A stretch of DNA of 52,117 nt from NCBI GenBank assembly GCA_016207245.1, contig JACQQA010000003.1, positions 1-52,117 of the forward strand. The letters run 5' to 3'. Position 1 is the first letter of the stretch; each line of letters opens with the position of its first letter. The notes under the pieces are model-generated. The model saw only the letters and a list, made by a program, of their open reading frames with translations, was not told where the DNA came from and did no database searches. The stretch is from Candidatus Magasanikiibacteriota bacterium. GTDB lineage: Bacteria; Patescibacteriota; Patescibacteriia; Magasanikbacterales; UBA922. Shown in pieces: positions 10,913 to 44,787 of this stretch. Position numbers and translations under genes: made by a program.

Positions 10913-10948
10913 TTTCTAATGTCTAATGACAAATAAAATGTCAAATGA
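10903..10948. repeat. Left arm of four-helix-bundle cassette 1
   Basis: AT-rich quasi-tandem arm (TCTAATTTCTAATGTCTAATG core) complementary to 11366-11405. It contains the stop codon of the upstream regulator and the start codons of the cassette gene. Most mismatches between the arms are G-T wobbles. Confidence 0.75.
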
Positions 10949-11366
10949 ACGGAATTCTAAATATAATCTTGAGGAAAGAACAGCTAAATTTGGCGAAGAC
11001 ATTATTATGTTCGTCAGAGAGGTTGGTGGCGATAGCAAGGATTACATCGTGGAGGCGATTTTAAAACAGTTAGTGCGTTCTGGCATTTCTGTGGGCGCTA
11101 ATTACTGTGAAGCGGATTGCGCTGAGACCAAAAAAGATTTCGAACATAAGATTGGTATTTGCAACAAGGAAGCCAAAGAAACGAAACATTGGCTGAGGAT
11201 GATCGCAAAGGCAAAAACTAACCAAGCGGAAAGCGCTAGAAAATTATGGAAAGAGGCGCACGAATTAAATTTGATTTTCACGTCTATTATTAGAAAATCA
11301 AAAGAAAACAGTGTTAACGAAAAAATTGAAAATTTTAAGAAAAATAATGCCGGAGAAAACAATTAA
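10926..11366 (+). CDS. Four-helix-bundle protein (S23/IVP-like)
   Basis: 146 residues (142 if ATG 10938 is used). It belongs to the four-helix-bundle family first known from the open frame inside 23S rRNA intervening sequences (TIGR02436/PF05635) and related to the Avd protein of diversity-generating retroelements. Key features are the LEERTAKFGEDIIMFVRE first helix, the conserved SGISVGANYCEA turn and the KKDFEHKIGICNKEAKETKHW third helix. It forms ring-like pentamers in known relatives and probably binds nucleic acid. Here it is outside rRNA, between a regulator and tsaB, bounded by complementary arms. No reverse transcriptase or template repeat is nearby. Confidence 0.85.
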   Translation: MTNKMSNERNSKYNLEERTAKFGEDIIMFVREVGGDSKDYIVEAILKQLVRSGISVGANYCEADCAETKKDFEHKIGICNKEAKETKHWLRMIAKAKTNQAESARKLWKEAHELNLIFTSIIRKSKENSVNEKIENFKKNNAGENN

Positions 11367-18515: not shown

Positions 18516-19025
18516 CTAGAGTTTGGTGATGTTGATGTGGCCGCCGCGGTCAACATCAATCTCGTAGACCGTTGCCGGCAGGATTTCGCTTTGGGTGCCC
18601 AGAGCGTTTTGCAGGGCGCACAGAAATGATTTGCTGGCGCAGACCACGGTGTTGTGCGGCAGGGTGTTGCGTACGTAGGTGTGAACAGAGTCGCGGAGAA
18701 CCACAGCATCGGTCACGGCAATTGCTGGCACTTTCGTGCCGTCAGCGAATACGACCAAGCGGAGGTTTTTCTTTCCTTTTTGCTCGCTGTCGGCTGTGCC
18801 AGCCAGGATGGTGAAGTTCGTCGGAGTTATTCCGAGCAATTCGGCAATCTGGCGATGCCGTGATCCGGTGCCGCATACGACCATTTCAATGTGTTCGGGG
18901 AGCTTGTCGCGGAGTCTTCTGATTTTCGCGCGGCCACGCGTCATGTCCGGGTCCGGGTAGCGGTTGTGTCCGCCGTCAGTCACCACGAAGATTGTTTTCC
19001 CAAGCGCAACTGCCTGAGCCCCCAT
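18516..19025 (-). CDS. Unknown protein, possibly divergent histidine phosphatase fold
   Basis: 169 residues. The order of motifs recalls the histidine phosphatase fold but with altered residues: VVTDGGHNR where VRHGxxxR is expected, MTRGRAKIRRLRDKL in place of LTxxGxxQA, and CGTGSRHRQIAELL in place of SxxxRxxxTA. Residue His18 and Arg57 might be remnants. This assignment is a weak inference; it could be an unrelated family. The gene is GC-rich, monocistronic, and has a strong promoter and a nested stem-loop leader like the other genes of its type in the window. The Shine-Dalgarno is weak (GGGGG). Confidence 0.55.
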   Translation of the reverse strand: MGAQAVALGKTIFVVTDGGHNRYPDPDMTRGRAKIRRLRDKLPEHIEMVVCGTGSRHRQIAELLGITPTNFTILAGTADSEQKGKKNLRLVVFADGTKVPAIAVTDAVVLRDSVHTYVRNTLPHNTVVCASKSFLCALQNALGTQSEILPATVYEIDVDRGGHINITKL

Positions 19026-26916: not shown

Positions 26917-26951
26917 GCCCACTAATACGACGACCACTAATTAACACTAAT

Positions 26952-26992
26952 AAAAACCGCCCCTTCGGCAAGCTCAGGGCGGTTTTTATTTT
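26952..26992 (+). terminator. frr terminator
   Basis: AAAACCGCCCC pairs with GGGCGGTTTT around the TTCGGCAAGCTCA loop, followed by T residues. Same repeat type as 4386. Confidence 0.9.
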
Positions 26993-27003
26993 ATTAAGTC
27001 CAT

Positions 27004-27038
27004 CTCCCTTGAGTGGTAAATTTTATCAACCAAGGGAG
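27004..27038. repeat. CTCCCTTRAG hairpin, copy 1
   Basis: CTCCCTTG (27004-27011) pairs with CAAGGGAG (27031-27038) around an AT-rich loop starting AGTGGTA. Related hairpins are at 27799 and 29345. Confidence 0.65.
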
Positions 27039-27103
27039 TTGGATGGACTTGCGGCGCATCCAACGAGAGGTTGGATGTTGTGTGGAAAGAACTGATTGTC
27101 TAG

Positions 27104-27655
27104 CTAGAGCCGGTTGCGTTCGCCCTCGCCGTTCGACGGCAGGTCTACTTCGGCGGAGCTATCGGGGGAGGGCGATTCGACGACGACAGTATCGGCGCGC
27201 TCGATGATTATTCCGGTCGGGATCATAGTTGTGGGCGGCTTTGCGGATGACGTTTCGTCGATCTCGGGTTTGTCTATACAGAAGGTATCATTATCGATAT
27301 TTCTGTAAAGAAGGTGGGCGACTATCATCTTCCACGTGTGCTCGCCGAACACGCCGTCGGCGTTCAGCTGGCCGTTGTCGTCGAAGCCTGTGAGAATCAG
27401 CACTGCCTGAAGACGCTTGATGCCATCCCTTTCATCTGGAATTTCGAATTCACAGCCGCTCATGATCTTGAGCGTCGCGTCGTCCAACTCTCTGGTAACC
27501 AGGAGATCTTCCTGCATCTGGAACCCTTCCAGAGCATTGCGCGTGTGCTCGCCGAACACGCCGTCGGCGTTCAGTTGGCCGTCGTCATCGTGGCCGTTGA
27601 TGATCAGCAGAGCCTGCGCCTGCTTGATCACTTTGGTAGTCACCACGAACTTCAT
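27104..27655 (-). CDS. Protein with two peptidoglycan-binding-like repeats
   Basis: 183 residues. Two PG_binding_1-like units lie at about 12-45 and 78-110, both containing GQLNADGVFGEHT (compare the family's DGxFGxxT). The DNA of the two units is almost identical (27338-27392 and 27542-27596), indicating recent duplication. The C-terminal 60 residues are Pro/Ser/Glu-rich and look disordered. No signal peptide is visible, which is odd for a wall-binding protein. ATG 27655 has an AGGAG site 5 nt upstream. GC-richer than surrounding genes. Confidence 0.72.
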   Translation of the reverse strand: MKFVVTTKVIKQAQALLIINGHDDDGQLNADGVFGEHTRNALEGFQMQEDLLVTRELDDATLKIMSGCEFEIPDERDGIKRLQAVLILTGFDDNGQLNADGVFGEHTWKMIVAHLLYRNIDNDTFCIDKPEIDETSSAKPPTTMIPTGIIIERADTVVVESPSPDSSAEVDLPSNGEGERNRL

Positions 27656-27780
27656 TTTTCTCCTCACTTTCCGTTTGTTTACTCGGTATATCCGGACACC
27701 ATGCCCGGTAACTTTGATGTTGATATATTGACATAAGTTTGCGAGAAAGTCAAGATTTTGACGCTACTCCTGATTTTTTT
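27656..27780 (-). promoter_or_regulatory. Leader and probable promoter of the PG-binding-like gene
   Basis: On the minus strand TTGACT lies near 27756 and an AT-rich -10 (CAATAT or TATATC) near 27730; spacing is imperfect. GTCAA-AATC-TTGAC overlaps the -35. The leader holds a CCGG-(9)-CCGG hairpin near 27695. Confidence 0.45.
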
Positions 27781-27798
27781 CAAGTTAATCAACCCAAC

Positions 27799-27840
27799 CT
27801 CCCTTAAGTGATATAAAAAACAATCTGTAACCTAAGGGGA
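27799..27840. repeat. CTCCCTTRAG hairpin, copy 2
   Basis: TCCCTTA pairs with TAAGGGG (one wobble) around an AT-rich loop starting AGTGATA. With copy 1 it brackets the 27104-27655 gene. Confidence 0.6.
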
Positions 27841-27865
27841 TAGATTTGTTCAAAAAAACAAAAAA

Positions 27866-27962: not shown

Positions 27963-28038
27963 GGCCCGGTAGCTCAGCTGGTAGAGCAACAGCCTTTTAA
28001 GCTGATGGTCGTGGGTTCGAATCCCACCCGGGTCACCA
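27963..28038 (+). tRNA. tRNA-Lys (anticodon TTT)
   Basis: 76 nt with encoded CCA. Acceptor GGCCCGG pairs with CCGGGTC. D arm GCTC-AGCTGGTA-GAGC, anticodon loop CTTTTAA (TTT), T arm GTGGG-TTCGAAT-CCCAC. Strong own promoter and terminator. Confidence 0.97.
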
Positions 28039-28075
28039 AAAAAGAACACTTCCATCATGGGAGTGTTCTTTTATT
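28039..28075. terminator. Bidirectional terminator (tRNA-Lys and toxin gene)
   Basis: AAAGAACACT pairs with AGTGTTCTTT around a CC-ATCAT-GG centre, followed by TTATTT. It overlaps the stop codon of the convergent toxin gene. Confidence 0.88.
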
Positions 28076-28328
28076 TATAAATACTTGATCGGTGCCCGAC
28101 TCTTAAAATCCTTATATTTTTTTCTTCACAATCAAAAATCACCCGATAATCTCCAATTCTAAATCTGTACTGGCCGATAGCGTCGTATTGCAGACGCTTG
28201 GCAAAATTTAATGGATTTTCTTGTTTAGCAAACCATTTCAGCTTTTTTATTATTCTTGACAACTCTTTTTTATCCAAACCGTCCATGTCTTTTATTGCTT
28301 CGTCGGTAAAGACGGTGTTATATTCCAT
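28071..28328 (-). CDS. RelE/ParE-family toxin
   Basis: 85 residues from ATG 28328 (a TTG four codons upstream is possible). RelE-like fold: YNTVFTDEAIKDMDGLDKKE, then KRLQYDAIGQYRFRIGDYRV and IFDCEEKNIRILRVGHRSSIY, where the R-x-G-x-YR core and the C-terminal HRSxIY are typical. RelE toxins cut mRNA in the ribosome; ParE relatives act on gyrase, and the sequence alone does not decide. It overlaps the antitoxin end by 11 nt. Confidence 0.88.
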   Translation of the reverse strand: MEYNTVFTDEAIKDMDGLDKKELSRIIKKLKWFAKQENPLNFAKRLQYDAIGQYRFRIGDYRVIFDCEEKNIRILRVGHRSSIYK

Positions 28329-28587
28329 ATCTCTTTTCAATTTGAGATAAAGGTGTTAATTTTTTACTTTGTCTGGCTCGCATCACACTTTTTAAATATT
28401 TTGGACTGGAAATTGCTTCCATATCCTCAATCAAATCACTGAAAATATCTTCAGCAAAAAAATAACCAAGCGTTGTTTTGCCTCTTAAAATGCGGGTAAC
28501 GCCCTGCAGGTGGCGGGATGGGCTTTTTTGCAGTTCCTTGATATTTACCAAACCCTCGTTTTTGAGCAGTTTTAAAGTTTGCAACAT
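28318..28587 (-). CDS. Antitoxin of the RelE-like toxin
   Basis: 89 residues. LVNIKELQKSPSRHLQGVTR recalls the Phd/YefM N-terminal DNA-binding region, followed by GYFFAEDIFSDLIEDMEA and SSPKYLKSVMRARQSKK, a toxin-wrapping helix style common in CPR pairs. First gene of the operon, with an autoregulatory-looking promoter. Confidence 0.75.
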   Translation of the reverse strand: MLQTLKLLKNEGLVNIKELQKSPSRHLQGVTRILRGKTTLGYFFAEDIFSDLIEDMEAISSPKYLKSVMRARQSKKLTPLSQIEKRYGI

Positions 28588-28648: not shown

Positions 28649-28709
28649 GCGCGGTTTATCCACAGTTAAATTAGCTTAAATCAACCAAAAAGATGGTGTG
28701 TATGCGGTC

Positions 28710-28738
28710 TTGATCCGTTTTTAGTTTTGTGATAGTCT
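28710..28738 (+). promoter_or_regulatory. Promoter of the 28844 gene
   Basis: TTGATC (28710-28715), 17-nt spacer, TAGTCT (28733-28738). The -10 and everything downstream are duplicated at 29465-29555. Confidence 0.7.
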
Positions 28739-28742
28739 TACT

Positions 28743-28820
28743 TCAGATCATTATTAAACTCTAACACAGCCAAAATCAGCCGGAATGGTTCCGGGGGATT
28801 GAGGTTGTGTTGAGAGTTTA
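28743..28820 (+). ncRNA. Structured leader RNA, copy 1
   Basis: AAACTCT-AACACA (28756-28768) pairs with TGTGTT-g-AGAGTTT (28806-28819). Inside is CCGGAA-TGG-TTCCGG (28780-28794), flanked by AAATCAGC and GGGGGATT. The 91-nt unit 28729-28819 differs from 29465-29555 at five positions, and the two changes in the outer stem turn C-G pairs into T-G wobbles. Confidence 0.8.
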
Positions 28821-28843
28821 GGCAAAAGGAAAGGAGTACTCTG

Positions 28844-29278
28844 ATGAGAGCGTTTTACGCCACAGATTTTCTTATCGGAGACAGAGTGTATGTCGTCGAT
28901 ACAATTGTCCTACCTAACGGTTCTTTCGTCCTCTGGAGAACGTTGGCCAATGTAGTTCTTGTCCAAGATAATCGCGTGGATTTTGTGGTTGTATCCACAG
29001 TCGACGGGTCACTGCCAGTCGGGGCCGGTTTTTCACTGTTCGATGCTCTGGGGGGGAAGGTAATCGACCATAATCAGTCCATTGCGTCCGTAGAGTTAGT
29101 CTTCCGGAAAGATGATAGCGGCAGTGGGTTAGACTTCGAGATTAAAGGCGACATATACCCGTCGCGTCCACTCGACGGCTTCAAGACTGTTAAGAGGCGG
29201 CCTATCATCTGGGAATCTGAGGATTGCGGTGGCGAAGCTTTAGCTGCTTATGGAGCCTATCTTCGTGGGGACAAATAG
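28844..29278 (+). CDS. Unknown protein with conserved structured leader
   Basis: 144 residues, not recognised. Mostly beta-like: TDFLIGDRVYVVDTIVLPNG, FVLWRTLANVVLVQDNRVDF, ASVELVFRKDDSGSGLDFEI. No signal peptide or membrane helix. An AAAGGAG site lies upstream of ATG 28844. GC-richer than its neighbours. The promoter and leader are almost the same as those of pyrF-pyrE immediately downstream, so the two transcripts are probably co-regulated; a link to pyrimidine metabolism is inference only. Confidence 0.7.
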   Translation: MRAFYATDFLIGDRVYVVDTIVLPNGSFVLWRTLANVVLVQDNRVDFVVVSTVDGSLPVGAGFSLFDALGGKVIDHNQSIASVELVFRKDDSGSGLDFEIKGDIYPSRPLDGFKTVKRRPIIWESEDCGGEALAAYGAYLRGDK

Positions 29279-29333
29279 TAATTATCGTTCTTTTCAATCT
29301 GTACCACCAATCCCTTCGCTGGGTGTGATCACA

Positions 29334-29387
29334 AGACCACTCAGCTCCCTTAAGTGATAATAATTTGTCGCTTTAGGGAGATGGTCT
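29334..29387. repeat. CTCCCTTRAG hairpin, copy 3
   Basis: CTCCCTTAAG (29345-29354) pairs with CTTTAGGGAG (29371-29380) with one mismatch; flanking AAGACCA (29334-29340) and TGGTCTT extend the stem. Confidence 0.65.
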
Positions 29388-29398
29388 TGAAAAAATAA

Positions 29399-29433
29399 TA
29401 AATCCACTTATAGAAATATGAGTGGATTTTAAA
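29399..29433 (+). terminator. Terminator after the 28844 gene
   Basis: AATCCACT pairs with AGTGGATT around TATAGAAATATG, followed by TTTAAAT. Confidence 0.7.
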
Positions 29434-29445
29434 TATGTTTGTATC

Positions 29446-29474
29446 TTGAACTTTTTTCAATTTCGTGATAGTCT
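29446..29474 (+). promoter_or_regulatory. pyrF-pyrE promoter
   Basis: TTGAAC (29446-29451), 17-nt spacer, TAGTCT (29469-29474); same geometry and same -10 as at 28710-28738. Confidence 0.7.
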
Positions 29475-29478
29475 TACT

Positions 29479-29556
29479 TCAGATCATTATTAAATTCTAA
29501 CATAGCCAAAATCAGCCGGAATGGTTCCGGAGGATTGACGTTGTGTTAAGAGTTTG
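29479..29556 (+). ncRNA. Structured leader RNA, copy 2
   Basis: AAATTCT-AACATA (29492-29504) pairs with TGTGTT-a-AGAGTTT (29542-29555). The inner hairpin CCGGAA-TGG-TTCCGG is unchanged (29516-29530). GGGAGG and the TTG start of pyrF follow directly. Confidence 0.8.
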
Positions 29557-29571
29557 AAAGGGAGGTGCAAC

Positions 29572-30291
29572 TTGGAACTTGCAGCAAAGGACAGAATCAT
29601 CGTGGCGCTTGATGTGCCAACTCTTCGCGAGGCGCATTTGCTCGCGGAACAACTCGGCGGCTATGTGGGCGCTTTCAAGGTCGGCCTTGAGCTGATCACA
29701 AGTGAGGGCGCTCCGCAGGTCGTCAAGGAGATGAAGAGGTTCGGGAACGTCTTCTTTGATGGGAAGTTCAGCGACATCCCGAACACGGTGGGGAATGCCT
29801 CGCGCGCAGTCGCCCAGATGGGAGTGTGGATGTTTGATGTCCACGCCTCTAGCGGCCTCGGGTCCATGCAGGCCGCGGTCCAGAACAGGGGCAATTCGCT
29901 CGTGTTCGCGGTTACGGTTCTGACGTCCATTGACATGAACGAGTGCGTCAGTGTCTTCGGCGGCTTTCCGAATACCAAGGTCATACAACTTGCCGGTTCC
30001 GCATACGAAGCTGGGTGCAATGGCGTGATCTGCTCGCCGAAAGAAGTCGGGGATATCTCGAAGAGTTTCAACGGTCTGCTCACGGCCGTCCCCGGTGTGC
30101 GTCCCAGGTGGGCAGCAACCAATGACCAGAAGCGTATCATGACCCCGGGTGACGCTATTAAGGCCGGCGCTGACTATTTAGTCATCGGCCGTCCAATCAC
30201 GAGCCCGCCGTCGGAAACCGGCGATTCGATCAGGGCGGCGCAGCTGATTGCAGAAGAGATCGACCAGGCGTTGGCCGAGTCTGGGAGGTGA
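29572..30291 (+). CDS. pyrF: Orotidine 5'-phosphate decarboxylase
   Basis: 239 residues from a TTG start preceded by GGGAGG at 6 nt. Converts OMP to UMP, the last step of UMP synthesis. The substrate-binding IVALDVPTLREA start, FKVGLEL, the catalytic DGKFSDIPNTV (D-x-K-x-x-D-I-P-N-T, type I) near 56-66, VPGVRP near 168 and the phosphate-binding YLVIGRPIT near 202 are all present. Followed after 3 nt by pyrE. GC-rich compared with the flanking ATPase gene, so possibly acquired. Confidence 0.95.
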   Translation: MELAAKDRIIVALDVPTLREAHLLAEQLGGYVGAFKVGLELITSEGAPQVVKEMKRFGNVFFDGKFSDIPNTVGNASRAVAQMGVWMFDVHASSGLGSMQAAVQNRGNSLVFAVTVLTSIDMNECVSVFGGFPNTKVIQLAGSAYEAGCNGVICSPKEVGDISKSFNGLLTAVPGVRPRWAATNDQKRIMTPGDAIKAGADYLVIGRPITSPPSETGDSIRAAQLIAEEIDQALAESGR

Positions 30292-30294
30292 ACC

Positions 30295-30945
30295 GTGGAA
30301 ACGATGAAGACGATTCTCGCGTTGTTCGAGTCCCTGGGAGCCATTTTGCGAAACACCCACGTCGTCTACACGTCGGGCAAACATGGGAACGCTTACGTCA
30401 ACAAGGATGTCATCTACCCACACACCGAGGCCGTGTACAGGCTTTGCTTCCTCATGGCGAAGCAGCTCGAGAACGCGGGCATCGATGTCGTGGCAGGTCC
30501 GGCTATGGGCGGATTGATCTTGGCCCAATGGGTCGCTTTTCATCTCTCGCAACTCACTGGCAGGGAGGTCCTTGCCGTGTACGCCGAGAAAGAAGGAGAA
30601 GGCTTCGCATTCAGGCGCGGACAGGACAAACTGATCGTTGGAAAGCGAGTTCTCGTAGTTGAGGATATTCTGACGACTGGTGGTTCGGTCAAGAAAGTGA
30701 ATGCTACTGTGCGTGCCGATGAAGGTCATCTCGTCGTCGTATTCGCCTTGTGCAATCGAGGCTGTGTTACGTGCGAGATGATTGATTCGCCGTTGCTGTA
30801 CACGCTCGTCGATATCAATCTGCAATCCTACGAGCCAGACAATTGTCCGCTCTGTCACGATGGAGTACCGATCAACATGTCGGTCGGCCACGGCAAGCAG
30901 TTTTTGCTGGACCATCCCGAGTTGGCGCATCTTGCGCCGAAATGA
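30295..30945 (+). CDS. pyrE: Orotate phosphoribosyltransferase
   Basis: 216 residues from a GTG start with GGGAGG upstream. Makes OMP from orotate and PRPP. YTSGKHGNAYVNKDVIYPH near 24, VVAGPAMGGLILAQW near 65 and the PRPP-loop VLVVEDILTTGGSVKK near 118 match the family. The C-terminal extension contains CNRGCVTC and NCPLCHDGVPI, a likely metal-binding or structural Cys set not found in E. coli PyrE. Directly coupled to pyrF. Confidence 0.95.
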   Translation: METMKTILALFESLGAILRNTHVVYTSGKHGNAYVNKDVIYPHTEAVYRLCFLMAKQLENAGIDVVAGPAMGGLILAQWVAFHLSQLTGREVLAVYAEKEGEGFAFRRGQDKLIVGKRVLVVEDILTTGGSVKKVNATVRADEGHLVVVFALCNRGCVTCEMIDSPLLYTLVDINLQSYEPDNCPLCHDGVPINMSVGHGKQFLLDHPELAHLAPK

Positions 30946-31037
30946 AAGATAACAAAATTAACCTTCGCAACCCGCCCTTGAAAGGCTGTGGGGGATGCGA
31001 GCGCAAAGATCCATTCGCACACCACATTTTTTCCTAA
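30942..31037 (+). CDS. Possible 31-residue CxxC/HH small protein
   Basis: ATG 30942 overlaps the pyrE stop (ATGA). The product contains GCGGCERKDPFAHHIFS, with a CxxC and two His, possibly binding a metal. The left arm of the terminator hairpin lies within it. It may be a coupled small gene or a fortuitous frame. Confidence 0.35.
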   Translation: MKDNKINLRNPPLKGCGGCERKDPFAHHIFS

Positions 31038-31088
31038 ATAAAATTAGGCGAAGATGCGGAGGATTCGCGAATGGATTTTTTGTTTTTC
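31009..31088 (+). terminator. pyrFE terminator
   Basis: ATCCATTCGC (31009-31018) pairs with GCGAATGGAT (31067-31076), directly followed by a T-run; the 48-nt interior is AT-rich. Confidence 0.7.
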
Positions 31089-31117: not shown

Positions 31118-33613
31118 ATGTCAATTATCGTCGGGAAAACCTACAAAGGCCTTACTTCCGCCGAAGCGCTGGAAAGGACAAAGCAGTACGGATTAAACAT
31201 CCGTCGAGGCGCGAAGCAGAAGACTTGGCACAAGCGTCTGTTTAATATTGTCAGCGAGCCGATGATTCTGTTGATTTTGGCAACCGCGGTGGTTTATTAT
31301 TTTATCGGCGATCAGTTGGAAGCGACCATTCTTTTGATTTCCATAATTCCGATAATATTTATTGAGTTCGCTCAAGAATCAAAAACCGATGAAGCCATCA
31401 AAATATTAGACAAGATAATAACAGAATATTGCATGGTTTATCGCGATGGAAAAATTGTTAAGTTGGAAAGCAAATTTTTAGTCCCCGGTGATTTGGTTTA
31501 TGTGACTGCCGGCGATAAAATCGGAGCTGATGGCTACTTATTAAATTCCCCCGGTCTGCAAATTGATGAATCTATTTTAACCGGCGAATCTGTTTCCACG
31601 ACTAAGGTGGAAGTGGGGAAGGATGTTGAAGTAGTAAAAGATGAAAATAAAGTTTTTCAAGGCACACTGGTAAGTCAGGGCGAAGGTTATATTATCGTAG
31701 AAAAAATCGGCAATGAAACCGAATACGGCAAATTGGGGGACTTGTTGGAAAAAATTATTTCTTTAAAAACTCCATTGCAGAAAAAAATTCATCATCTGGT
31801 TCGTTGTGTCGCTTTAACGGCGATATTTTTCGCAGTGTTTGTCGGTTTATTTTTAGCCGTAAAAAATGGTTGGACCGCCGGTCTTTTGGGCGGATTAACG
31901 ATTGCCATTTCATTAATCCCCGAAGAATTTCCCGTGGTTTTTTCCGTGTTTTTAATCATGGGCGTGTGGCGGATGACCAAAGAGAAAGCGTTAATCCGTG
32001 AAATGGCCATAGTAGAACTGTTGGGTTCGGCAACCGTTATTTGCACGGATAAAACCGGCACTCTGACTGAAGGAAAAATGGCTTTGGAAAAAATTTATTT
32101 CTCCGGTCGGCTTTTAACTTTGACGCAGGCGAAGAAACAGCAAGCGGATTGCGAGCATTTTTTCAAAACCGCCCTGCTGTCTCTGGAACAGATCGCGGTT
32201 GATCCGATTGAATTGGAAACCCAACGTTTTGCCAGGGAATTAAATATTGACACGCAGAAATTTTATGATGAGCATGTCTTAACGGAAGACGCGCCGTTTG
32301 ACGCCAAGACAAAATTAGTCAGCCACATTTGGAAAGACAAGAGCGACGGCTATTTTCAATATACCGCCGGCGCTCCGGAATCAATTTTAAAATATAGCAA
32401 TATTAGCCCGCCGGAAAAAAAGAAGATAGAAGAAATTTTGGAAGAAAATTTTGCCGAAGGATTAAGAATCGTAGCCATCGGCTACAAGGAAATCGCCAAA
32501 GACGCGCCGGTAACTTTGAACAACCTTAAGTTTGTCGGCCTTTTGATTATGAGCGACCCGCCGCGCGAGGGAGTGAGAGAGGCGATTGAGCTCTGCCAAA
32601 AAGCGGGAATCCGCATTATTATGATCACCGGCGATAACAAGCTCACCGCGCATTCCATCGCCGAGCAGATTAAACTCAAACATAACGAAAATATTATTTC
32701 CGGACCGGAACTGGAAAAATTGTCCCCGGACGCTTTGTACGAGGCGGTTAAACATCATGACATTTTCGCGCGCGTTTTGCCGGAACAAAAATATCTGCTG
32801 GTGGAAGCTCTGCAAAAACATGGTGAAATCGTGGCCATGACCGGCGACGGCGTTAATGACGCGCCGGCCATAAAAAAAGCCAACATCGGCATCGCGATGG
32901 GCCGGAGAGGAACCGAAGTCGCGCGCGCCGCTTCCGGCATGGTGCTGTTGGACGATAATTTTTCCACTATCGTCAACGCGATAAAGGATGGCCGAAGAAT
33001 CTACGATAATATCCGCCACGCGTTTGTTTTTCTTTTTTCTTTTCATATTCCCATTGTCGGTCTGGCAGTCTTGCCTCTGTTTTTTGGGCAGAACTTGATT
33101 TTTTCACCGATACATATTATTTTTTTGGAAATGATTTGTGATCCGTCGGCCGTGCTGGGTTTTGAGCGGGAAAAAGCTAGAAAAGGGCTGATGAACGAAT
33201 CGCCGCGTTCGATTAACGAACCGTTGATAAACCCGGCGCTTTGGAAAAAAATTCTTTCGCAAGGCGTCAGCATTACCGTGGTCAGTTTTGGTTTTTATTA
33301 TTATTTCGCGATTTATTTGGGACAGACGGATTTGGGGCGCACTTTGGCTTTCGGCTCATTGATTTTTTCGCAGATTTTTCTTATACTTATCAATCGGGAG
33401 TGGGAGCAGATCAAAGCCAATAAATTTTTGCTCTATATTTCTTTAATCACCGCCGGTTTTCTTGTGCTGGCAATTTATACGCCATTTTTAAGAAAAGTTT
33501 TTTCCCTCACGCCTTTGGTTTTGATAGAATTATTGCTGATGGCCGCGGTTCCGTTTATTGTCGCGGTGTTTTTGAAGCTCTCGCGTTTAATTAAAATAAA
33601 AATTAATTACTAA
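31118..33613 (+). CDS. Cation-transporting P-type ATPase (P2-like)
   Basis: 831 residues. Cation N-terminal domain (GLTSAEALERTKQYGLN), A domain with LTGES near 155, phosphorylation motif CTDKTGTLTEGKM near 310, hinge VAMTGDGVNDAPAIKKANIG near 575, and about ten membrane helices. The ion-site helix 4 reads ISLIPEEFPVVFS where Ca or Na/K pumps have PEGLPA/PEGLLA; PEEFPV is a recurring variant in bacterial pumps. The likely cargo is Ca2+ or another cation, but not certain. Followed after 4 nt by the translin-like gene. Confidence 0.9.
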   Translation: MSIIVGKTYKGLTSAEALERTKQYGLNIRRGAKQKTWHKRLFNIVSEPMILLILATAVVYYFIGDQLEATILLISIIPIIFIEFAQESKTDEAIKILDKIITEYCMVYRDGKIVKLESKFLVPGDLVYVTAGDKIGADGYLLNSPGLQIDESILTGESVSTTKVEVGKDVEVVKDENKVFQGTLVSQGEGYIIVEKIGNETEYGKLGDLLEKIISLKTPLQKKIHHLVRCVALTAIFFAVFVGLFLAVKNGWTAGLLGGLTIAISLIPEEFPVVFSVFLIMGVWRMTKEKALIREMAIVELLGSATVICTDKTGTLTEGKMALEKIYFSGRLLTLTQAKKQQADCEHFFKTALLSLEQIAVDPIELETQRFARELNIDTQKFYDEHVLTEDAPFDAKTKLVSHIWKDKSDGYFQYTAGAPESILKYSNISPPEKKKIEEILEENFAEGLRIVAIGYKEIAKDAPVTLNNLKFVGLLIMSDPPREGVREAIELCQKAGIRIIMITGDNKLTAHSIAEQIKLKHNENIISGPELEKLSPDALYEAVKHHDIFARVLPEQKYLLVEALQKHGEIVAMTGDGVNDAPAIKKANIGIAMGRRGTEVARAASGMVLLDDNFSTIVNAIKDGRRIYDNIRHAFVFLFSFHIPIVGLAVLPLFFGQNLIFSPIHIIFLEMICDPSAVLGFEREKARKGLMNESPRSINEPLINPALWKKILSQGVSITVVSFGFYYYFAIYLGQTDLGRTLAFGSLIFSQIFLILINREWEQIKANKFLLYISLITAGFLVLAIYTPFLRKVFSLTPLVLIELLLMAAVPFIVAVFLKLSRLIKIKINY

Positions 33614-33617
33614 ACGT

Positions 33618-34190
33618 ATGCTCAACACAAAATATCTCGGTCAGTTGCGTCAGAATCTCCATGCCTACGCCAGCAAGCGCGTTGAAGTTATTAATAAATC
33701 TAACGAAGCTCTGCATCACGCCAAACGGGTGATTTTCGCTTTGCATCGCGACAACGTTGAAGAAGCGAAAGAAAAATTAAATTTCGCGGAAAAGATGCTG
33801 TTGGATTTGCGCAAGACTTATCAAAAAGATAATAAAATGATGCACGAAGGCGCATTTTTGGCCGCGTTGGAAGAATATGTGGAAGCGAAATTATTTTTTG
33901 ATTTTATTACGGTTGGTAAAATCGGCGAGATAAAAAATTTAACAGTTGACGGCGAGGTTTATCTGGCCGGCTTGTGCGATGTGCCGGGAGAGCTGTACCG
34001 TTTTGCTATCAAAGCCGCGACCAATCGCGACATTAAAACCGTAAAAAAATGCGCTGATATGGCGCAGGAAATTATCGGCGAGCTGATAGAGTTTAATTTA
34101 ACCAGTTATCTGCGGACAAAACTTGATCAAGCCAAGCAGGCGGTGCATAAGTTAGAGCAGGTGGTGTATGAAGTTAGTTTGCGGACTTGA
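33618..34190 (+). CDS. Translin/TRAX-family protein
   Basis: 190 residues, all-helical. Family signatures: SNEALHHAKRVIFALHRDN, EGAFLAALEEYVEAKLFFDF near 78 (the QEYxEA acidic motif) and GLCDVPGELYRFAIKAATN near 117 (DVxGEL). The acidic residues that give TRAX its RNase activity in C3PO appear to be kept (EE..E and D). Eukaryotic translin-TRAX cleaves RNA passenger strands and tRNA fragments; prokaryotic members are known but little studied. Probably co-transcribed with the ATPase. Confidence 0.85.
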   Translation: MLNTKYLGQLRQNLHAYASKRVEVINKSNEALHHAKRVIFALHRDNVEEAKEKLNFAEKMLLDLRKTYQKDNKMMHEGAFLAALEEYVEAKLFFDFITVGKIGEIKNLTVDGEVYLAGLCDVPGELYRFAIKAATNRDIKTVKKCADMAQEIIGELIEFNLTSYLRTKLDQAKQAVHKLEQVVYEVSLRT

Positions 34191-34274
34191 CATTTTTATC
34201 TAAAAAATATAGAATATTTTATTCTCTAAATCAGCATATCGCAAGGCGCGGTATGTTGGCGGGGGAATAAAGTA
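34187..34274 (+). promoter_or_regulatory. Promoter and structured leader of the 34288 gene
   Basis: TTGACA (34187-34192), 17-nt spacer, TAGAAT (34210-34215). In the leader TTTATTC (34218-34224) pairs with GAATAAA (34265-34271); inside, CAGCATATCGC (34232-34242) pairs with 34248-34258. AAATCAGC and GGGGGA occur at the same relative places as in the 28743 leader. Confidence 0.7.
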
Positions 34275-34287
34275 AAGGGGTAGAGTT

Positions 34288-34641
34288 ATGCTTTCTATCG
34301 GATCTTGTTCTACGGTTTCGTTCGTCAGACGAACAACAAACCGCGAGATCAGCTTCGCTCTGCTGGTCAATCCGGAAGGTGACGCGACAGCGTGCGTCTA
34401 TGCCTTGTTGGGCACATACGTGTCAGGACCTGTGAGGAACATCCAAATAGAGAAAAGCACGCCGAGTCCAAGAGGACTCATCGTTGAAGGATGCGCGGAA
34501 GTAGAATTTCCTCACGCTCTGCATCAGGACAGCGATTCACCATCAATCTCTTCTTGCAGTCTCGCTCTAAGCGGAATCGCTTTCTCTCCCAGCGCTGGTC
34601 GCCGCCAGCGCAGACGCTCCGGTTCACCGACCATCCACTAA
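34288..34641 (+). CDS. Unknown protein, possibly frameshifted
   Basis: 117 residues, unrecognised. Residues 1-75 (FVRRTTNREISFALLVNPEG, CVYALLGTYVSGPVRNIQIE) look like a normal beta-rich protein. The C-terminal 40 residues are Ser/Arg-rich (SAGRRQRRRSGSPTIH), which suggests a shifted frame or repeat-derived tail. Strong promoter, structured leader and AAAGGGG site upstream support expression. A terminator follows at 34740. Confidence 0.5.
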   Translation: MLSIGSCSTVSFVRRTTNREISFALLVNPEGDATACVYALLGTYVSGPVRNIQIEKSTPSPRGLIVEGCAEVEFPHALHQDSDSPSISSCSLALSGIAFSPSAGRRQRRRSGSPTIH

Positions 34642-38242: not shown

Positions 38243-38318
38243 CGGGCTATAGCGCAGTTGGTAGCGCGCATCGTTCGGGACGATGAGGCCGTGGGTTCAA
38301 GTCCCACTAGCCCGACCA
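38243..38318 (+). tRNA. tRNA-Pro (anticodon CGG)
   Basis: 76 nt with encoded CCA. Acceptor CGGGCTA pairs with TAGCCCG. Anticodon stem CATCG/CGATG with loop TTCGGGA (CGG), T arm GTGGG-TTCAAGT-CCCAC. Its last 12 nt overlap the 3' end of the convergent aclA gene. Confidence 0.97.
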
Positions 38319-40109
38319 ATCCAGATTCGCCACTTCGTCTTCCGGCAAACGGAACAATCCTTCGTCAAGCCGGCGCTGGTCAAGATAATGTCCGACAAAA
38401 CCGACACTGCGGCTTAAGACAAACAAGGCGTTAAAAAACTCTGCTGCCACCAGTTCGGATAGCGCTGAATTATCATATCCTTCTTTTTCTTTTAACAAAT
38501 CAAGCATTACCGCGGCCACCGCGCCGTCAACATTCAAAATTAAATTTGCTTTTTTCATCAGAGTGATTTTTTCTATTTTTAACGTGAAATCAGTGAAAGT
38601 TTTTTGACTAAGCGATTGGCTAAAATTTAAAATCATCTTCACGCGCGGGTCAGGCTGGCGCGAGCTGTATTTTTTATGTCCGATTCCAGCAATATGTTTT
38701 TGCGTACTCGCGCAGTTTTCCACGAATACTGCCGGGTCAATTTGTTCTCCCGCGCCCTTCAGCCAATTATTCGCCGCCTCATTGATCGCTCCGCCAAAAC
38801 GATCGCCGATGGTCAGAAGCCCTGAACACAAACTTGATACCAAATCTTTGCCCGCTCGCGTTGTTATCATCGTATTGACCGCGCCGGATACGCATGGTCC
38901 ATGATCAGTCAATAATTTCAAAACCAATTCAGTAAAGTCCACCAGCTCTTTTGATTTTGGTTTTTGTCCGAGCAAAATGGAAATTATCATTTCCGGATAA
39001 GACATTTTTTCCGCGATTTTTGTAAGTTCTTCATTAAGAATCGTCGGCGCGCCGTCTTTGTCTCCGGAAATACCGCAGGTGAACAGTGTGTGTTTGCGAT
39101 TCGACAGGTCTTCGTGGTTTTGCGTTTGATTGTCGCCGCTCATAATATTATTTTTAATCAAATTTATAAATTCTTCGTAAGATTCGCCGACCAGCGCGCC
39201 GGCGTCGCGCAAGGCGGTTTTTTTGGCCGCGGCGGTTTCTTCTCCTTTTTGCGCCAGCGCTTTGGCGTGGCCGAATTGTGGCGGTTCCGCGAACACACCG
39301 GCGACGCTGCCGGCGATGTAGGCGATTATCGGCTTGGTGATTTTTTTCTCTTTTATCAATTCCGCCAGGCGATATTCATCGGTTCCACCAAGTTCGCCGA
39401 AATATACTATTTGTTTTGTCTCCGCGTCCTGTTCAGCGGTTAAAAACGCTGATTCCGGAGTTAGAATAGGGAAACGATCGCCGCCGAAAGCGAGCGCGAA
39501 AGACAGACCGATGTTTTGTCGTGCCAATTGGTTAATTAGTTCATTTGTCATCCCGCCGGATGAACATAATACGGCGGTATTCCCGGATGTAAACAGATGC
39601 GCGGCAATCAGTTGGTTGTTTTCAATCCCCCCGATCGCTCCCAGTTTTAGCTTTCCTGGAATTAAAATTCCCACGCTGGCCGGTCCGATGATAAATAGAT
39701 TTTTTTCTTTACCATGAGCTTGTCGAATGGTTTTCCAAATCTCTATCGCGTGTTTTTCCGGCAGGTTTTCCGCGAAGATGACTCCGCCACGCAAGTTCGG
39801 CAGGGCCGCGATGGTTTCTGGCGTGCTTGATAAAGCGCGTCGGCCAGAGGATACGTTGATAAATAAATTTATTTGCTCTTTTATTTTTGTCGGTATTAAA
39901 TTAACATTCGCGTAAACCGGAATCAAACATTCTTTCCTGCCCCAGAAAAATTTTTCCAATTTTCTGCCGGAGCCGATGATTGCTTTTACCGACGGTGTTG
40001 GTTTTCCAGACAAAAAGTCAAAATCTAGCATTGACTGCAAAATTTGCGGGTGCGAGCCTATCATGATGATGCTGTGTTCGTTGTCTCTTAGGTGATTGAG
40101 TTCAATCAT
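38307..40109 (-). CDS. aclA: ATP-citrate lyase, large subunit (AclA-like)
   Basis: 600 residues, normal for the split form. CoA-binding/ligase part first, with the phosphohistidine loop in PPQFGHAKALAQKGEE near 280. The C-terminal citrate-synthase-like domain contains TDHGPCVSGAVNTMITTRAG near 408, SGLLTIGDRFGGAINEA, and GIGHKKYSSRQPDPRVK near 480. With AclB it cleaves citrate to acetyl-CoA and oxaloacetate using ATP and CoA. A palindromic repeat is inserted in frame (IRQAHGKEKN, from 39712-39730). The stop codon lies inside the opposing tRNA-Pro. Confidence 0.9.
   Translation of the reverse strand: MIELNHLRDNEHSIIMIGSHPQILQSMLDFDFLSGKPTPSVKAIIGSGRKLEKFFWGRKECLIPVYANVNLIPTKIKEQINLFINVSSGRRALSSTPETIAALPNLRGGVIFAENLPEKHAIEIWKTIRQAHGKEKNLFIIGPASVGILIPGKLKLGAIGGIENNQLIAAHLFTSGNTAVLCSSGGMTNELINQLARQNIGLSFALAFGGDRFPILTPESAFLTAEQDAETKQIVYFGELGGTDEYRLAELIKEKKITKPIIAYIAGSVAGVFAEPPQFGHAKALAQKGEETAAAKKTALRDAGALVGESYEEFINLIKNNIMSGDNQTQNHEDLSNRKHTLFTCGISGDKDGAPTILNEELTKIAEKMSYPEMIISILLGQKPKSKELVDFTELVLKLLTDHGPCVSGAVNTMITTRAGKDLVSSLCSGLLTIGDRFGGAINEAANNWLKGAGEQIDPAVFVENCASTQKHIAGIGHKKYSSRQPDPRVKMILNFSQSLSQKTFTDFTLKIEKITLMKKANLILNVDGAVAAVMLDLLKEKEGYDNSALSELVAAEFFNALFVLSRSVGFVGHYLDQRRLDEGLFRLPEDEVANLDWSG
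39712..39730. repeat. PERSRR-type palindrome inside aclA
   Basis: CCATGAGCTTGTCGAATGG, translated on the minus strand as IRQAHGKEK. Confidence 0.8.
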
Positions 40110-40131
40110 ATATGATAATACCAGTGTTGTC

Positions 40132-40240
40132 TGTCATTGCGAGGAGGAGTTCGCGCGACGACGAAGCAATCCAGTCGTCAACGATTAACGAACGTGGATT
40201 GCTTCGTCAGCCGATGCGAATCGGCTTCCTCGCAATGACA
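40132..40240. repeat. CATTGCGAG-family repeat between aclB and aclA
   Basis: TGTCATTGCGAGGA at one end pairs with TCCTCGCAATGACA at the other, and GACGAAGCAATCCA pairs with TGGATTGCTTCGTC inside. Fills almost the whole aclB-aclA gap. Confidence 0.88.
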
Positions 40241-40247
40241 GAGGCTG

Positions 40248-41450
40248 TTATTTTATCGCCAACTTCACTATTTCTTGTAAAGGCAATTCCGGGCCGTAAA
40301 CGCCGCCGCATAAATTATTTTTTTCCAAAAATTCTTTCATCATCGCCAGCCCCTCGGTCTGCCCGGGTCCGCCGCGGCGGACGAAAATTTTTACACCGGA
40401 TTTATTTCCGCCCGAGGCGGATCCGCCTTGGGCGGACAGTGCATCTTTTTCTTCATCCAAAGCGCGGATAATCCCGCGGAAAGTTACGCGGACGTCAGTG
40501 AAGTTCGCCACGCCGCCGCCGATAATAATAATTTTTTTGTCTGATTTAGAATTTTTTAACAATGATAAAACTTGTTTGGCGTAAAAATAAGTTTCTTCTT
40601 CATTCGGGTTCCCGCTGTATTCGCCGTAGTTGGCCAGTTTATCCGCGTAACCGAGATTATATACTTCATCAGCGACAACTAAACTTCCGCCGCCGCCGGA
40701 AAGCAGAAGGAAGATCGCGCCATCCGGATTTATTACGGAAAGCGAGAATGACGCCTGGCTGTTTTTTTTCAATACCGCGACCGCGTTTTCCTGCGGAGTT
40801 TTTTTATTATTCGGAACGATATCTGTTTCATTCCACGCGTGATTGGCAAAAAATTGTCCGGCGCTGTCCACTTGCGCGGCCATATCAAGAAAGTACGGGA
40901 TGTTATTTGAAACGACCAGCGGGTTTATTTCCAAAAAAGAAAAATAACAATCATCAAATATTTGCTCCAACTTGGTTATTGTTTTTAGATCTAATCCAAT
41001 TTGTTTAGCCACTGCTTCGCATCCCGCGTCGTCAAGCAAATATTTTTTTATCGCGCCGGCATTGTTTTCAATATCAACCCCGCCAGTCGCGGAAACACTG
41101 GCGGTTATTCCTTCGCGTTCGCGCTCCAGACATAAATATTTCTCTTCGTCAGCATTATGCGCGACAAATTCTTCAATTAAAAAATAATCAAAACCCTTTG
41201 CTTTAAGATTATCTAAAGTTGTTTTAATTTCAGCTCGACCGATATTCAAAACTACCAATCCATTTTTAAACCGCTTTTTTACTCCTTGATCAACTTTAAC
41301 CACATATTTTTTGTCATAAGCCAATGTTTTTATCACACTATCAATATCTGTTTGCGGGGTAACAGCGATTCCGTTGTATGGAAAAAACAACCGTTTGCAC
41401 ACGATTCTTTTGGCGTTATGTTCAAATAGTTTCACTCGCGGCATAAACAC
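40248..41450 (-). CDS. aclB: ATP-citrate lyase, small subunit (AclB-like, ATP-grasp)
   Basis: 400 residues. ATP-grasp/CoA-ligase beta-type subunit: KRIVCKRLFFPYNGIAV, KYVVKVDQGVKKRFKNGLV near 48, FDYFLIEEFVAHNADEEKYL near 87, SFLEINPLVV near 172, then the ligase part with LLLSGGGGSLVVADEV near 250 and IFVRRGGPGQTEGLAMMKEF near 360. Works with AclA. SAQGGSASGGNKSG near 345 is encoded by an inserted GC palindrome (40407-40436). A promoter-like TATACT lies just upstream. Start could be ATG 41444. Confidence 0.9.
   Translation of the reverse strand: MFMPRVKLFEHNAKRIVCKRLFFPYNGIAVTPQTDIDSVIKTLAYDKKYVVKVDQGVKKRFKNGLVVLNIGRAEIKTTLDNLKAKGFDYFLIEEFVAHNADEEKYLCLEREREGITASVSATGGVDIENNAGAIKKYLLDDAGCEAVAKQIGLDLKTITKLEQIFDDCYFSFLEINPLVVSNNIPYFLDMAAQVDSAGQFFANHAWNETDIVPNNKKTPQENAVAVLKKNSQASFSLSVINPDGAIFLLLSGGGGSLVVADEVYNLGYADKLANYGEYSGNPNEEETYFYAKQVLSLLKNSKSDKKIIIIGGGVANFTDVRVTFRGIIRALDEEKDALSAQGGSASGGNKSGVKIFVRRGGPGQTEGLAMMKEFLEKNNLCGGVYGPELPLQEIVKLAIK
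40407..40436. repeat. TCCGCC/GGCGGA palindrome inside aclB
   Basis: TCCGCCCGAGGCGG and CCGCCTTGGGCGGA form an imperfect 30-nt palindrome in frame. A relative lies in gatA at 45619-45649. Confidence 0.82.
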
Positions 41451-41639: not shown

Positions 41640-42722
41640 ATGAGTGAAACGGTGATAGAGCGACCAAGCGTGCTTGATAATACAATATTCTACTGCAAGG
41701 CTCGGCGCAAGAAACAATCGCTTGAGAAGTGCTTGGACGATTACACGAACGCCACTGCGTTTGAAAACCGCAAGTCTGCTTGTTGGCATTGTCCGCAGGG
41801 TCGTGGAAATCGTACCGACTTCGTCAATTCTGCTGACGGTGTGGACGGTGATGATTTCGTTCCGCCACCTCGGAAATCGACCTCATCGGTCAATCGCGGA
41901 CACTCGGTAGTCGTTCCCAGCATAGAGGTACAAACACCCCAGCCAGCGCCGCAACCCGCCGAGCCAACACCTGTTTCGCTACCAGTCGAGCCAGTTCTGC
42001 CTGTGCCACCCGCTGAGTCTCCGCCACCCGCGGAAGTTCCGGAGGCTGTTCCCCAAGCGGTGGTTCCGCCGCCGCACGACGATGAAGTCAGTGATACCAC
42101 AACTGTGCCAACACCAGAACAAGAAGAGAGAGGAGAAATGAAATTGGAAAACAGAGCGAGAAAGATGTCGTTCACGGATCGTGTCCGCCATGCCTGGAAT
42201 AACACTCCGGGCGAAACGGCGGTAGAAAAGCAAGAATATCTTTTCCTGCGTAACGCCACTGACGCGCTCCAGCAGATCTTCGGCCTTGGTTCGCCGGCCT
42301 ATGCGCAGCTTTTCATGGATAGACTGCGTCAAAATGATCTGATCATCGGAACCGACGGGTCTTACTACTGGGCCAACGACATGAGCAACTACAGTGAGAC
42401 GGACGGTCCCAAACCGGGTCCTCGCTCGAGAGCCTCCGAACCGCCTTCGGAAGACGTCGCGGACGACGCGGGAGAGTCAACGGAAACGGACGAGGTGGAC
42501 AGCAACGATCTTCATATCGTCCTCGCACGCGCGCCATGGATGGCGTCCGTACTTCGGGCCGCGGCTCTGCTGGGACAAATAGCGCCGGACGCGCGCATTC
42601 TGGCGCTGGAGGCGATCAGGAAGATTGCGGCGCTACCGGAAGAAAATCTGCCACAGGCGCTCAACACACTGAACGCGATTTTTCACGAATCGCTGCCGGC
42701 CGAGGAGCCAGAGTTCGAGTAA
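41640..42722 (+). CDS. Protein with Cys-rich N-terminus, Pro-rich linker and helical C-terminus
   Basis: 360 residues, not assigned. Residues 17-60 hold four Cys (FYCKARRKKQSLEKCLDDY, then SACWHCPQGRGNR), a probable zinc ribbon. Residues 95-155 are Pro/Glu/Val-rich and repetitive. Residues 180-245 (SFTDRVRHAWNNTPGETAVE, ATDALQQIFGLGSPAYAQLF) and 285-360 look helical. A cytosolic scaffold or nucleic-acid-associated role is possible. It has a perfect AAGGAGG site, GC-rich codons and a consensus promoter, so it is probably well expressed. Confidence 0.7.
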   Translation: MSETVIERPSVLDNTIFYCKARRKKQSLEKCLDDYTNATAFENRKSACWHCPQGRGNRTDFVNSADGVDGDDFVPPPRKSTSSVNRGHSVVVPSIEVQTPQPAPQPAEPTPVSLPVEPVLPVPPAESPPPAEVPEAVPQAVVPPPHDDEVSDTTTVPTPEQEERGEMKLENRARKMSFTDRVRHAWNNTPGETAVEKQEYLFLRNATDALQQIFGLGSPAYAQLFMDRLRQNDLIIGTDGSYYWANDMSNYSETDGPKPGPRSRASEPPSEDVADDAGESTETDEVDSNDLHIVLARAPWMASVLRAAALLGQIAPDARILALEAIRKIAALPEENLPQALNTLNAIFHESLPAEEPEFE

Positions 42723-44415: not shown

Positions 44416-44787
44416 ATGGCGCAGATACAGACTTTTAAGGATTTAGTGGCATGGCAAAAAGCACACGAACTTGTCTTATGTGTGTATCAGACAACTAATT
44501 TGTATCCAAAACATGAACTCTTTACATTAACAAGTCAAACACGACGAGCCGCGATATCAGTACCAGCTAACATTGTTGAGGGTTTTCGAAGAAAAGGATT
44601 GCGGGATAGCATAAATTTTTATAATATTTCCGATGCTTCATTAGAGGAACTCAAGTATCACTTATTGCTTGCAAAAGATTTAAAATACATTGATGAAATT
44701 GTATATGGCGTTGTTCAAAAAAAATGTGAAGATGTGGGCAGACTTTTAACAAGATGGATACAAAGCCAGCGTAAATATCTTGCTTAA
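44416..44787 (+). CDS. Four-helix-bundle protein (S23/IVP-like), second copy
   Basis: 123 residues of the same family as 10926-11366: FKDLVAWQKAHELVLCVYQT, RRAAISVPANIVEGFRRKG (the conserved S-x-P-x-N-I-x-E-G turn) and DSINFYNISDASLEELKYHL. The two copies share little sequence beyond family motifs. It interrupts gatC-gatA, with arms overlapping the gatC stop and ending just before gatA. Confidence 0.9.
   Translation: MAQIQTFKDLVAWQKAHELVLCVYQTTNLYPKHELFTLTSQTRRAAISVPANIVEGFRRKGLRDSINFYNISDASLEELKYHLLLAKDLKYIDEIVYGVVQKKCEDVGRLLTRWIQSQRKYLA

Follow-up and report, generated by a model that had tools for sequence, protein, structure and literature searches.

The DNA analysed in this study (hereafter the window) is a 52,117-nucleotide stretch of a Candidatus Magasanikbacteria genome, referred to as G000; G005 and G006 are congeners that carry the leader described below. 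The landmark of the locus is a tRNA-Lys(TTT) gene (27963-28038, forward strand), which adjoins gene cassettes in three species. Two transcription units with nearly the same promoter and leader follow on the forward strand. The first consists of a promoter at 28710-28738 (TTGATC at 28710-28715, a 17-nt spacer and TAGTCT at 28733-28738), a predicted 5' leader stem-loop at 28754-28821, the Shine-Dalgarno (SD) sequence AGGAG at 28832-28836, 7 nt 5' of the ATG, the orphan ORF unk144 (28844-29278, 144 aa), a 3' hairpin element of the kind termed type I below (29287-29396, main hairpin 29332-29389) and a terminator-like hairpin, AATCCACTTATAGAAATATGAGTGGATTTT, at 29401-29430, which is conserved in G005. 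The second is a complete pyrFE cassette of 1,645 bp (29431-31075). Its promoter is at 29446-29474 (TTGAAC at 29446-29451, 17 nt, TAGTCT at 29469-29474) and its stem-loop at 29490-29557, both stem-loops being delimited by folding and a covariance model; pyrF (29572-30291), pyrE (30295-30945) and a type II 3' element with a T-tract at its end (31006-31085) follow.

The GC-rich pyrF matched OMPdecase with E 8e-46 and an NCBIfam equivalog above its cut-off, and pyrE belongs to the orotate phosphoribosyltransferase family, its best NCBIfam match being under the curated cut-off. For unk144 no relative was found in Pfam, PHROGs, NCBIfam, IMG/VR or phages, and 380 genomes gave one doubtful match only. 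Ahead of tRNA-Lys, a GC-rich gene with a peptidoglycan-binding domain is encoded on the reverse strand (27104-27667). It has a type I 3' element and a leader that is not homologous to the repeated one, with a similar tip, CCGGGCA-TGG-TGTCCGG, read off the sequence itself. Between tRNA-Lys and the first leader, an AT-rich ParE-like toxin gene and a small partner ORF occupy 28071-28587 on the reverse strand; their third-position GC content (GC3) of 0.33-0.34 is unlike that of the GC-rich cassettes.

The repeated promoter and leader

Positions 28731-28819 and 29467-29555 are identical at 84 of 89 positions, and the whole homology, from the -35 to the end of the stem, spans 112 nt (28708-28819 and 29444-29555, 90%), well above chance (blastn within the genome, E 8e-39). 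Outside it, the upstream and coding sequences of the two copies are unrelated. Both copies fold into a long stem with the tip CCGGAA-UGG-UUCCGG (predicted -35.9 kcal/mol, z -7.2, for copy 1 and -28.9 kcal/mol, z -4.9, for copy 2), and CCGGAATGGTTCCGG is the same in both. Two of the five differences are C-to-T changes in the outer stem at which pairing is kept as G.U, a third disrupts the innermost outer pair, and the remaining two are unpaired. The initial annotation had described this pair of near-identical units, with the -35, 17-nt spacer and TAGTCT, an outer stem around a shared hairpin, two differences retained as wobbles and unrelated genes (here the orphan ORF and pyrFE) downstream, and each of these points was found again on reading the sequence. 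The promoter of copy 1 did not pass a simple consensus scan; the hexamers and their spacing are kept in all five leader copies found.

Distribution and covariation of the leader

A third copy, 71% identical and upstream of pilM, was found in G005 by blastn against 46 genomes of the family. With a covariance model built on the two copies of the window, a weak fourth candidate emerged, upstream of an MFS transporter in G006, the third species of the genus (E 0.3), which was accepted because promoter, stem and SD were all present. The fifth copy, in G005 upstream of another MFS transporter, was outside the training set of the four-sequence model and scored 51.6 bits (E 4.6e-6; these E-values are rough, given a short calibration). 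The final covariance model returned these five leaders only, in the three genomes, and nothing further in a draw of 380 other genomes of the phylum, so that the covariance searches give a total of exactly five, all from a single Candidatus Magasanikbacteria genus, of which three species are represented. A consensus pattern run on 84,980 species recovered the G005 and G006 copies only, plus two matches in Calditrichaeota and Limnovirga that lack the leader context and are attributed to chance; IMG/VR gave no leader match.

Several other candidates were rejected. The exact 15-mer CCGGAATGGTTCCGG had a single extra match across the order (G078), inside an unrelated terminator-like RNA. A match of model R1 in G022 and one of model R2 in G220 were discarded, one being within a coding sequence and the other across a gene end and terminator. 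The segment 34218-34271, put forward in the initial annotation as a third copy, scored only 15.9 bits with model R1 and was missed by R2 and R3; its architecture is alike and its sequence is not homologous. At this place (34187-34641, forward strand) TTGACA-17-TAGAAT, a strong hairpin leader and an SD precede a 117-aa orphan ORF, in the layout of the leader family without its homology.

In the five leaders, 89.6% of the cells pair, and both sides have changed in eight of the 23 pairs. The covariation score was reached by none of 500 shuffles, and slid controls scored far lower, none reaching it; the five-sequence alignment was fitted to the model, and a four-sequence MAFFT alignment gave the same picture. 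Paired positions include 18 G.U against five A.C combinations, and therefore the RNA sense strand is the strand kept paired. Judged from these comparisons, the repeated leader is a real structured RNA element. A structured leader RNA had been proposed in the initial annotation together with a covariance search of CPR genomes; since homologues exist beyond this genome and covary, the pair in the window is neither a recent duplication confined to one genome nor a leader lacking covariation. It could be argued that a promoter region was simply copied ahead of other genes and that the RNA structure has no role, as the two window copies are adjacent and 90% identical and promoter copying is known (PMC9944727). 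The compensatory changes between species, which preserve the pairing of the stem, make this explanation very unlikely.

The loop GGUU, the internal-loop CAA-A and TTA-T-AG past the -10 are invariant. Downstream of the hairpin there is only UUU, directly followed by the SD; because a U-run after the hairpin is absent and no terminator hairpin with a U-run stands ahead of the gene, the leader is not a transcription attenuator. A T-box was considered on account of the UGGU loop and AAR in the internal loop and was dismissed, as stem I, the terminator and downstream lysine genes are all missing. No Rfam leader family reached its gathering cut-off in the window, and none matched either leader even at E 5; a sub-threshold Leu_leader match at 26949-27051, with 28.9 bits where the cut-off is 50, is taken as chance. 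In three of the five transcripts the SD is predicted to be partly paired with early coding sequence.

Genes downstream of the leader

The leader precedes an orphan ORF, pyrFE, pilM and two MFS transporters, the latter being related to PgtP and GlpT with scores below the cut-offs of those models. As it had been suggested that the leader is a regulatory element shared with pyrimidine synthesis, the possibility was considered that it senses UMP, UTP or orotate, or is bound by PyrR. One of the five copies does precede pyrFE. The other four stand ahead of genes without a tie to pyrimidines, pyrF is present in four of 46 family genomes and absent from both leader-bearing congeners, and neither an Rfam match nor an attenuator was found. 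A pyrimidine-responsive leader has, on this evidence, a close to negligible probability; as far as gene context can tell, the leader is not a pyrimidine element, and of the earlier suggestion the structured RNA stands and the pyrimidine link falls.

Most of the downstream genes stand out by their composition. The median GC3 of G000, taken over about 370 kb, is 0.49; the ORF holding pyrF (read from 29554) has 0.72, pilM 0.71-0.72 and the MFS genes 0.76, whereas unk144 is ordinary (0.52). The SDs of GC-rich genes are far stronger than those of native genes (p 7e-6), and their leaders tend to be more structured (p 0.03). The general statement that all GC-rich genes have hairpin leaders with RGG loops is not claimed, the structure being a trend only. 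Further GC-rich genes with strong SDs were seen in G000 at C2:42962, C12:51065, C5:154076 and C5:155979 and in the window at 18516-19025 (reverse strand) and 41640-42722; strong hairpin leaders precede those at C2:42962 and C12:51065, and RGG occurs in several apical loops of this further set.

3' elements and gene replacement beside tRNA-Lys

The 3' ends are also shared. Over about 100 nt, the sequence 3' of unk144 matches that 3' of pilM in G005 at 89% identity and that 3' of the MFS gene in G006 at 79%, and this type I element stands behind four of the five leader genes (unk144, pilM and both MFS). It also occurs behind the 27104-27667 gene with its different leader (26988-27092, reverse strand; profile match 98.7 bits), where it aligns with the element of the G006 MFS gene at the same position on the side of the adjoining gene, read as that of ribosome recycling factor (frr). 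A profile of five elements retrieved a sixth from another genus (G014, E 4.9e-8), behind a GC-rich orphan gene adjoining tRNA-Lys. A possible decayed copy at 27793-27841 (forward strand) gave weak profile matches only (E 0.02-0.06). The core, CCA(T)-CYMA-CTCCC ... GGGAGATGG, forms a stem in which a bulge of 4-5 nt is conserved, and its distal part is variable in sequence with the pairing retained. The covariation score was reached by none of 500 shuffles, and the number of two-sided pairs by 83 of 500, so that covariation support for type I is only moderate.

The type II element behind pyrE was matched (E 4e-7) by a profile built solely from two orphan cassettes adjoining tRNA-Lys in G015, of another genus. 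A third kind of 3' end is shared by two tandem GC-rich orphans adjoining tRNA-Lys in G002 (L094 7940-8900), at 92% over 91 nt. Across the other genera of the family, GC-rich orphans lie beside the same tRNA-Lys in five of the 18 neighbourhoods looked at. The 3' element patterns were not found in IMG/VR. These counts come from five leader copies and six type I elements, all from metagenome assemblies. In G000, about 370 kb of the 687-kb genome were read first and about 130 kb more were scanned for 3' elements; other cassettes may exist, as the coverage was limited to these parts.

Gain or loss and replacement were each seen at one site. The pyrFE cassette is missing from the matching site of G005, where the 3' element and terminator are directly joined to the sequence ahead of the P-type ATPase; between those same flanks G000 has the 1,645-bp unit, from terminator to terminator, with the breakpoint in the terminator T-tracts. 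On the frr side, the 27104 gene in G000 and an MFS gene in G006 occupy the same place in the same orientation; the genes are unrelated, and the 3' element and frr flank align up to near the stop codons. The two leader-bearing MFS genes share 43% identity in protein and 57% in DNA, against 81% for their leaders; native genes of G000 and its congeners show 80-86% DNA identity. The simplest reading of these comparisons is that, at these sites, the flanking ends are older than the coding sequences between them.

One leader copy adjoins an aminoacyl-tRNA synthetase gene, probably lysS, rather than tRNA-Lys. The scan of ORFs turned up no recombinase or integrase, and plasmid records held only distant matches (<60% identity) as donors for pyrFE or MFS; in the MFS tree the G006 protein is on a long branch with ambiguous placement. 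A search for tRNA-end duplication, as a trace of integration at tRNA-Lys, used the G005 tRNA arm as its pattern, which was unmatched even in the window's own tRNA. The P-type ATPases adjoining tRNA-Lys (window 31118-33613; L079 11561-14236) are themselves of two types, about 32% identical, which alternate between species at the same place, ahead of a translin-family gene.

Discussion

Rather than a pyrimidine switch, the leader appears to form one end of a gene cassette that is portable. The initial annotation had caught the structured leader, whereas it had overlooked that the 3' elements are shared and that the units look like cassettes. We favour, with slightly better than even confidence, the reading that exchangeable, mostly foreign, moron-like cassettes lie by tRNA-Lys and that the hairpins at their ends work both as handles for expression and as homology arms. 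Such a cassette would consist of a promoter, a 5' stem-loop, a strong SD, an unrelated and usually GC-rich foreign gene or gene pair, a 3' hairpin element and a terminator, and cassettes could be gained, lost or refilled with a new coding sequence, the ends being retained. Transcription would start about 10 nt ahead of the stem-loop, which may shield the 5' end and leave the ribosome-binding site outside the stem. The 3' hairpins may shield the other end of the message; with both shielded, the ends could be portable handles that give incoming genes stability and expression. The shared ends would also double as homology arms, with swapping through ordinary recombination. Several points count against the cassette reading: the copies are few, the GC3 of unk144 is 0.52, the SD is predicted to be partly paired in some transcripts and the scanned ORFs include no recombinase. 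Nor are the ends a fixed pair, since pyrFE is followed by a different 3' type and the 27104 cassette has a different leader.

The main rival is a shared factor, either a host protein or a small RNA, that reads the invariant GGUU and co-controls all leader genes, the shared 3' ends being incidental. That GGUU, CAA-A and TTA-T-AG are constant while the stem covaries is as expected for a recognised element. However, the downstream genes vary between species and have no common pathway, no candidate partner is known and the shared 3' elements would be left unexplained, and we regard a regulon of this kind as rather unlikely.

The hairpins could also be recombination sites, either similar to the attC of integrons or of another single-strand DNA type, at which an unknown recombinase inserts cassettes. 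The exact insertion of one whole unit, the replacement at one site, the structured 3' ends common to different genera and the tandem repeat of the leader with a gene between are compatible with this. On the other hand, the attC boxes RYYYAAC/GTTRRRY are not conserved in the six type I elements (by eye), the ORFs scanned include no integrase, the pyrFE breakpoint lies in the terminator T-tracts and not in the hairpins, and the G.U excess indicates RNA rather than DNA; this explanation is therefore considered quite unlikely. Integron gene cassettes do resemble the units described here in being interchangeable single genes, sometimes in tandem, with a structured 3' end, and they differ in that each Magasanikbacteria unit has its own promoter and leader. 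The boldest reading is that of a dedicated Candidatus Magasanikbacteria recombination system, in which structured ends of several types, shared between genera, tag single-gene cassettes to be captured and swapped at tRNA-Lys by unknown machinery and also supply the promoter, the stabilised message and the terminator; we rate it as unlikely.

Returning to exchangeable cassettes with shared ends, the closest parallels are phage morons, which are independently transcribed foreign genes, each with its own promoter and terminator. The term is in use (PMC6469090). The likeness lies in a single foreign gene of different composition, with its own predicted promoter and terminator, between conserved neighbours; the shift in base composition holds for pyrF, pilM and MFS (GC3 0.71-0.76 against a median of 0.49) and not for unk144 (0.52). 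Unlike morons, the cassettes are chromosomal and adjoin tRNA-Lys, their leader and 3' patterns are absent from IMG/VR, and unrelated genes have common structured 5' and 3' ends. In the propagation of promoters, or horizontal regulatory transfer (PMC9944727), a regulatory region also stands ahead of unrelated genes and is mobile independently of them, but here the sharing extends to both ends of the transcription unit, and the leader RNA covaries. The stem-loops of ompA, papA and aprE protect the message from its 5' end (reviewed in PMC3997798). They likewise combine a stable stem-loop near the predicted 5' end with a ribosome-binding site directly after it, a likeness of fold and position; the present leader differs in being common to unrelated acquired genes and in its invariant loop.

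Little is known of how foreign genes are taken up and expressed in streamlined CPR bacteria. Of the genes in the regions they have acquired, most are without assigned function (PMC12455944). Among the titles and abstracts listed in searches of open-licence papers, none described such shared-end cassettes in CPR bacteria. A recognisable pair of transcript ends would allow acquired genes, orphans included, to be extracted from Magasanikbacteria genomes, and their origin and the agent that moves them could then be asked about. To our knowledge, unrelated genes with both structured ends in common have not been reported from CPR bacteria. Being compact expression parts, the leader and the 3' elements could also be put to the test in laboratory strains.

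Two further features of the window were noted. Genes for 23S rRNA-intervening-sequence proteins (PF05635) occur at 10926-11366 and 44416-44787, distant from any rRNA seen there. A pair of ORFs at 38307-41450 (reverse strand) resembles the halves of ATP-citrate lyase, which is unexpected for a streamlined CPR genome.
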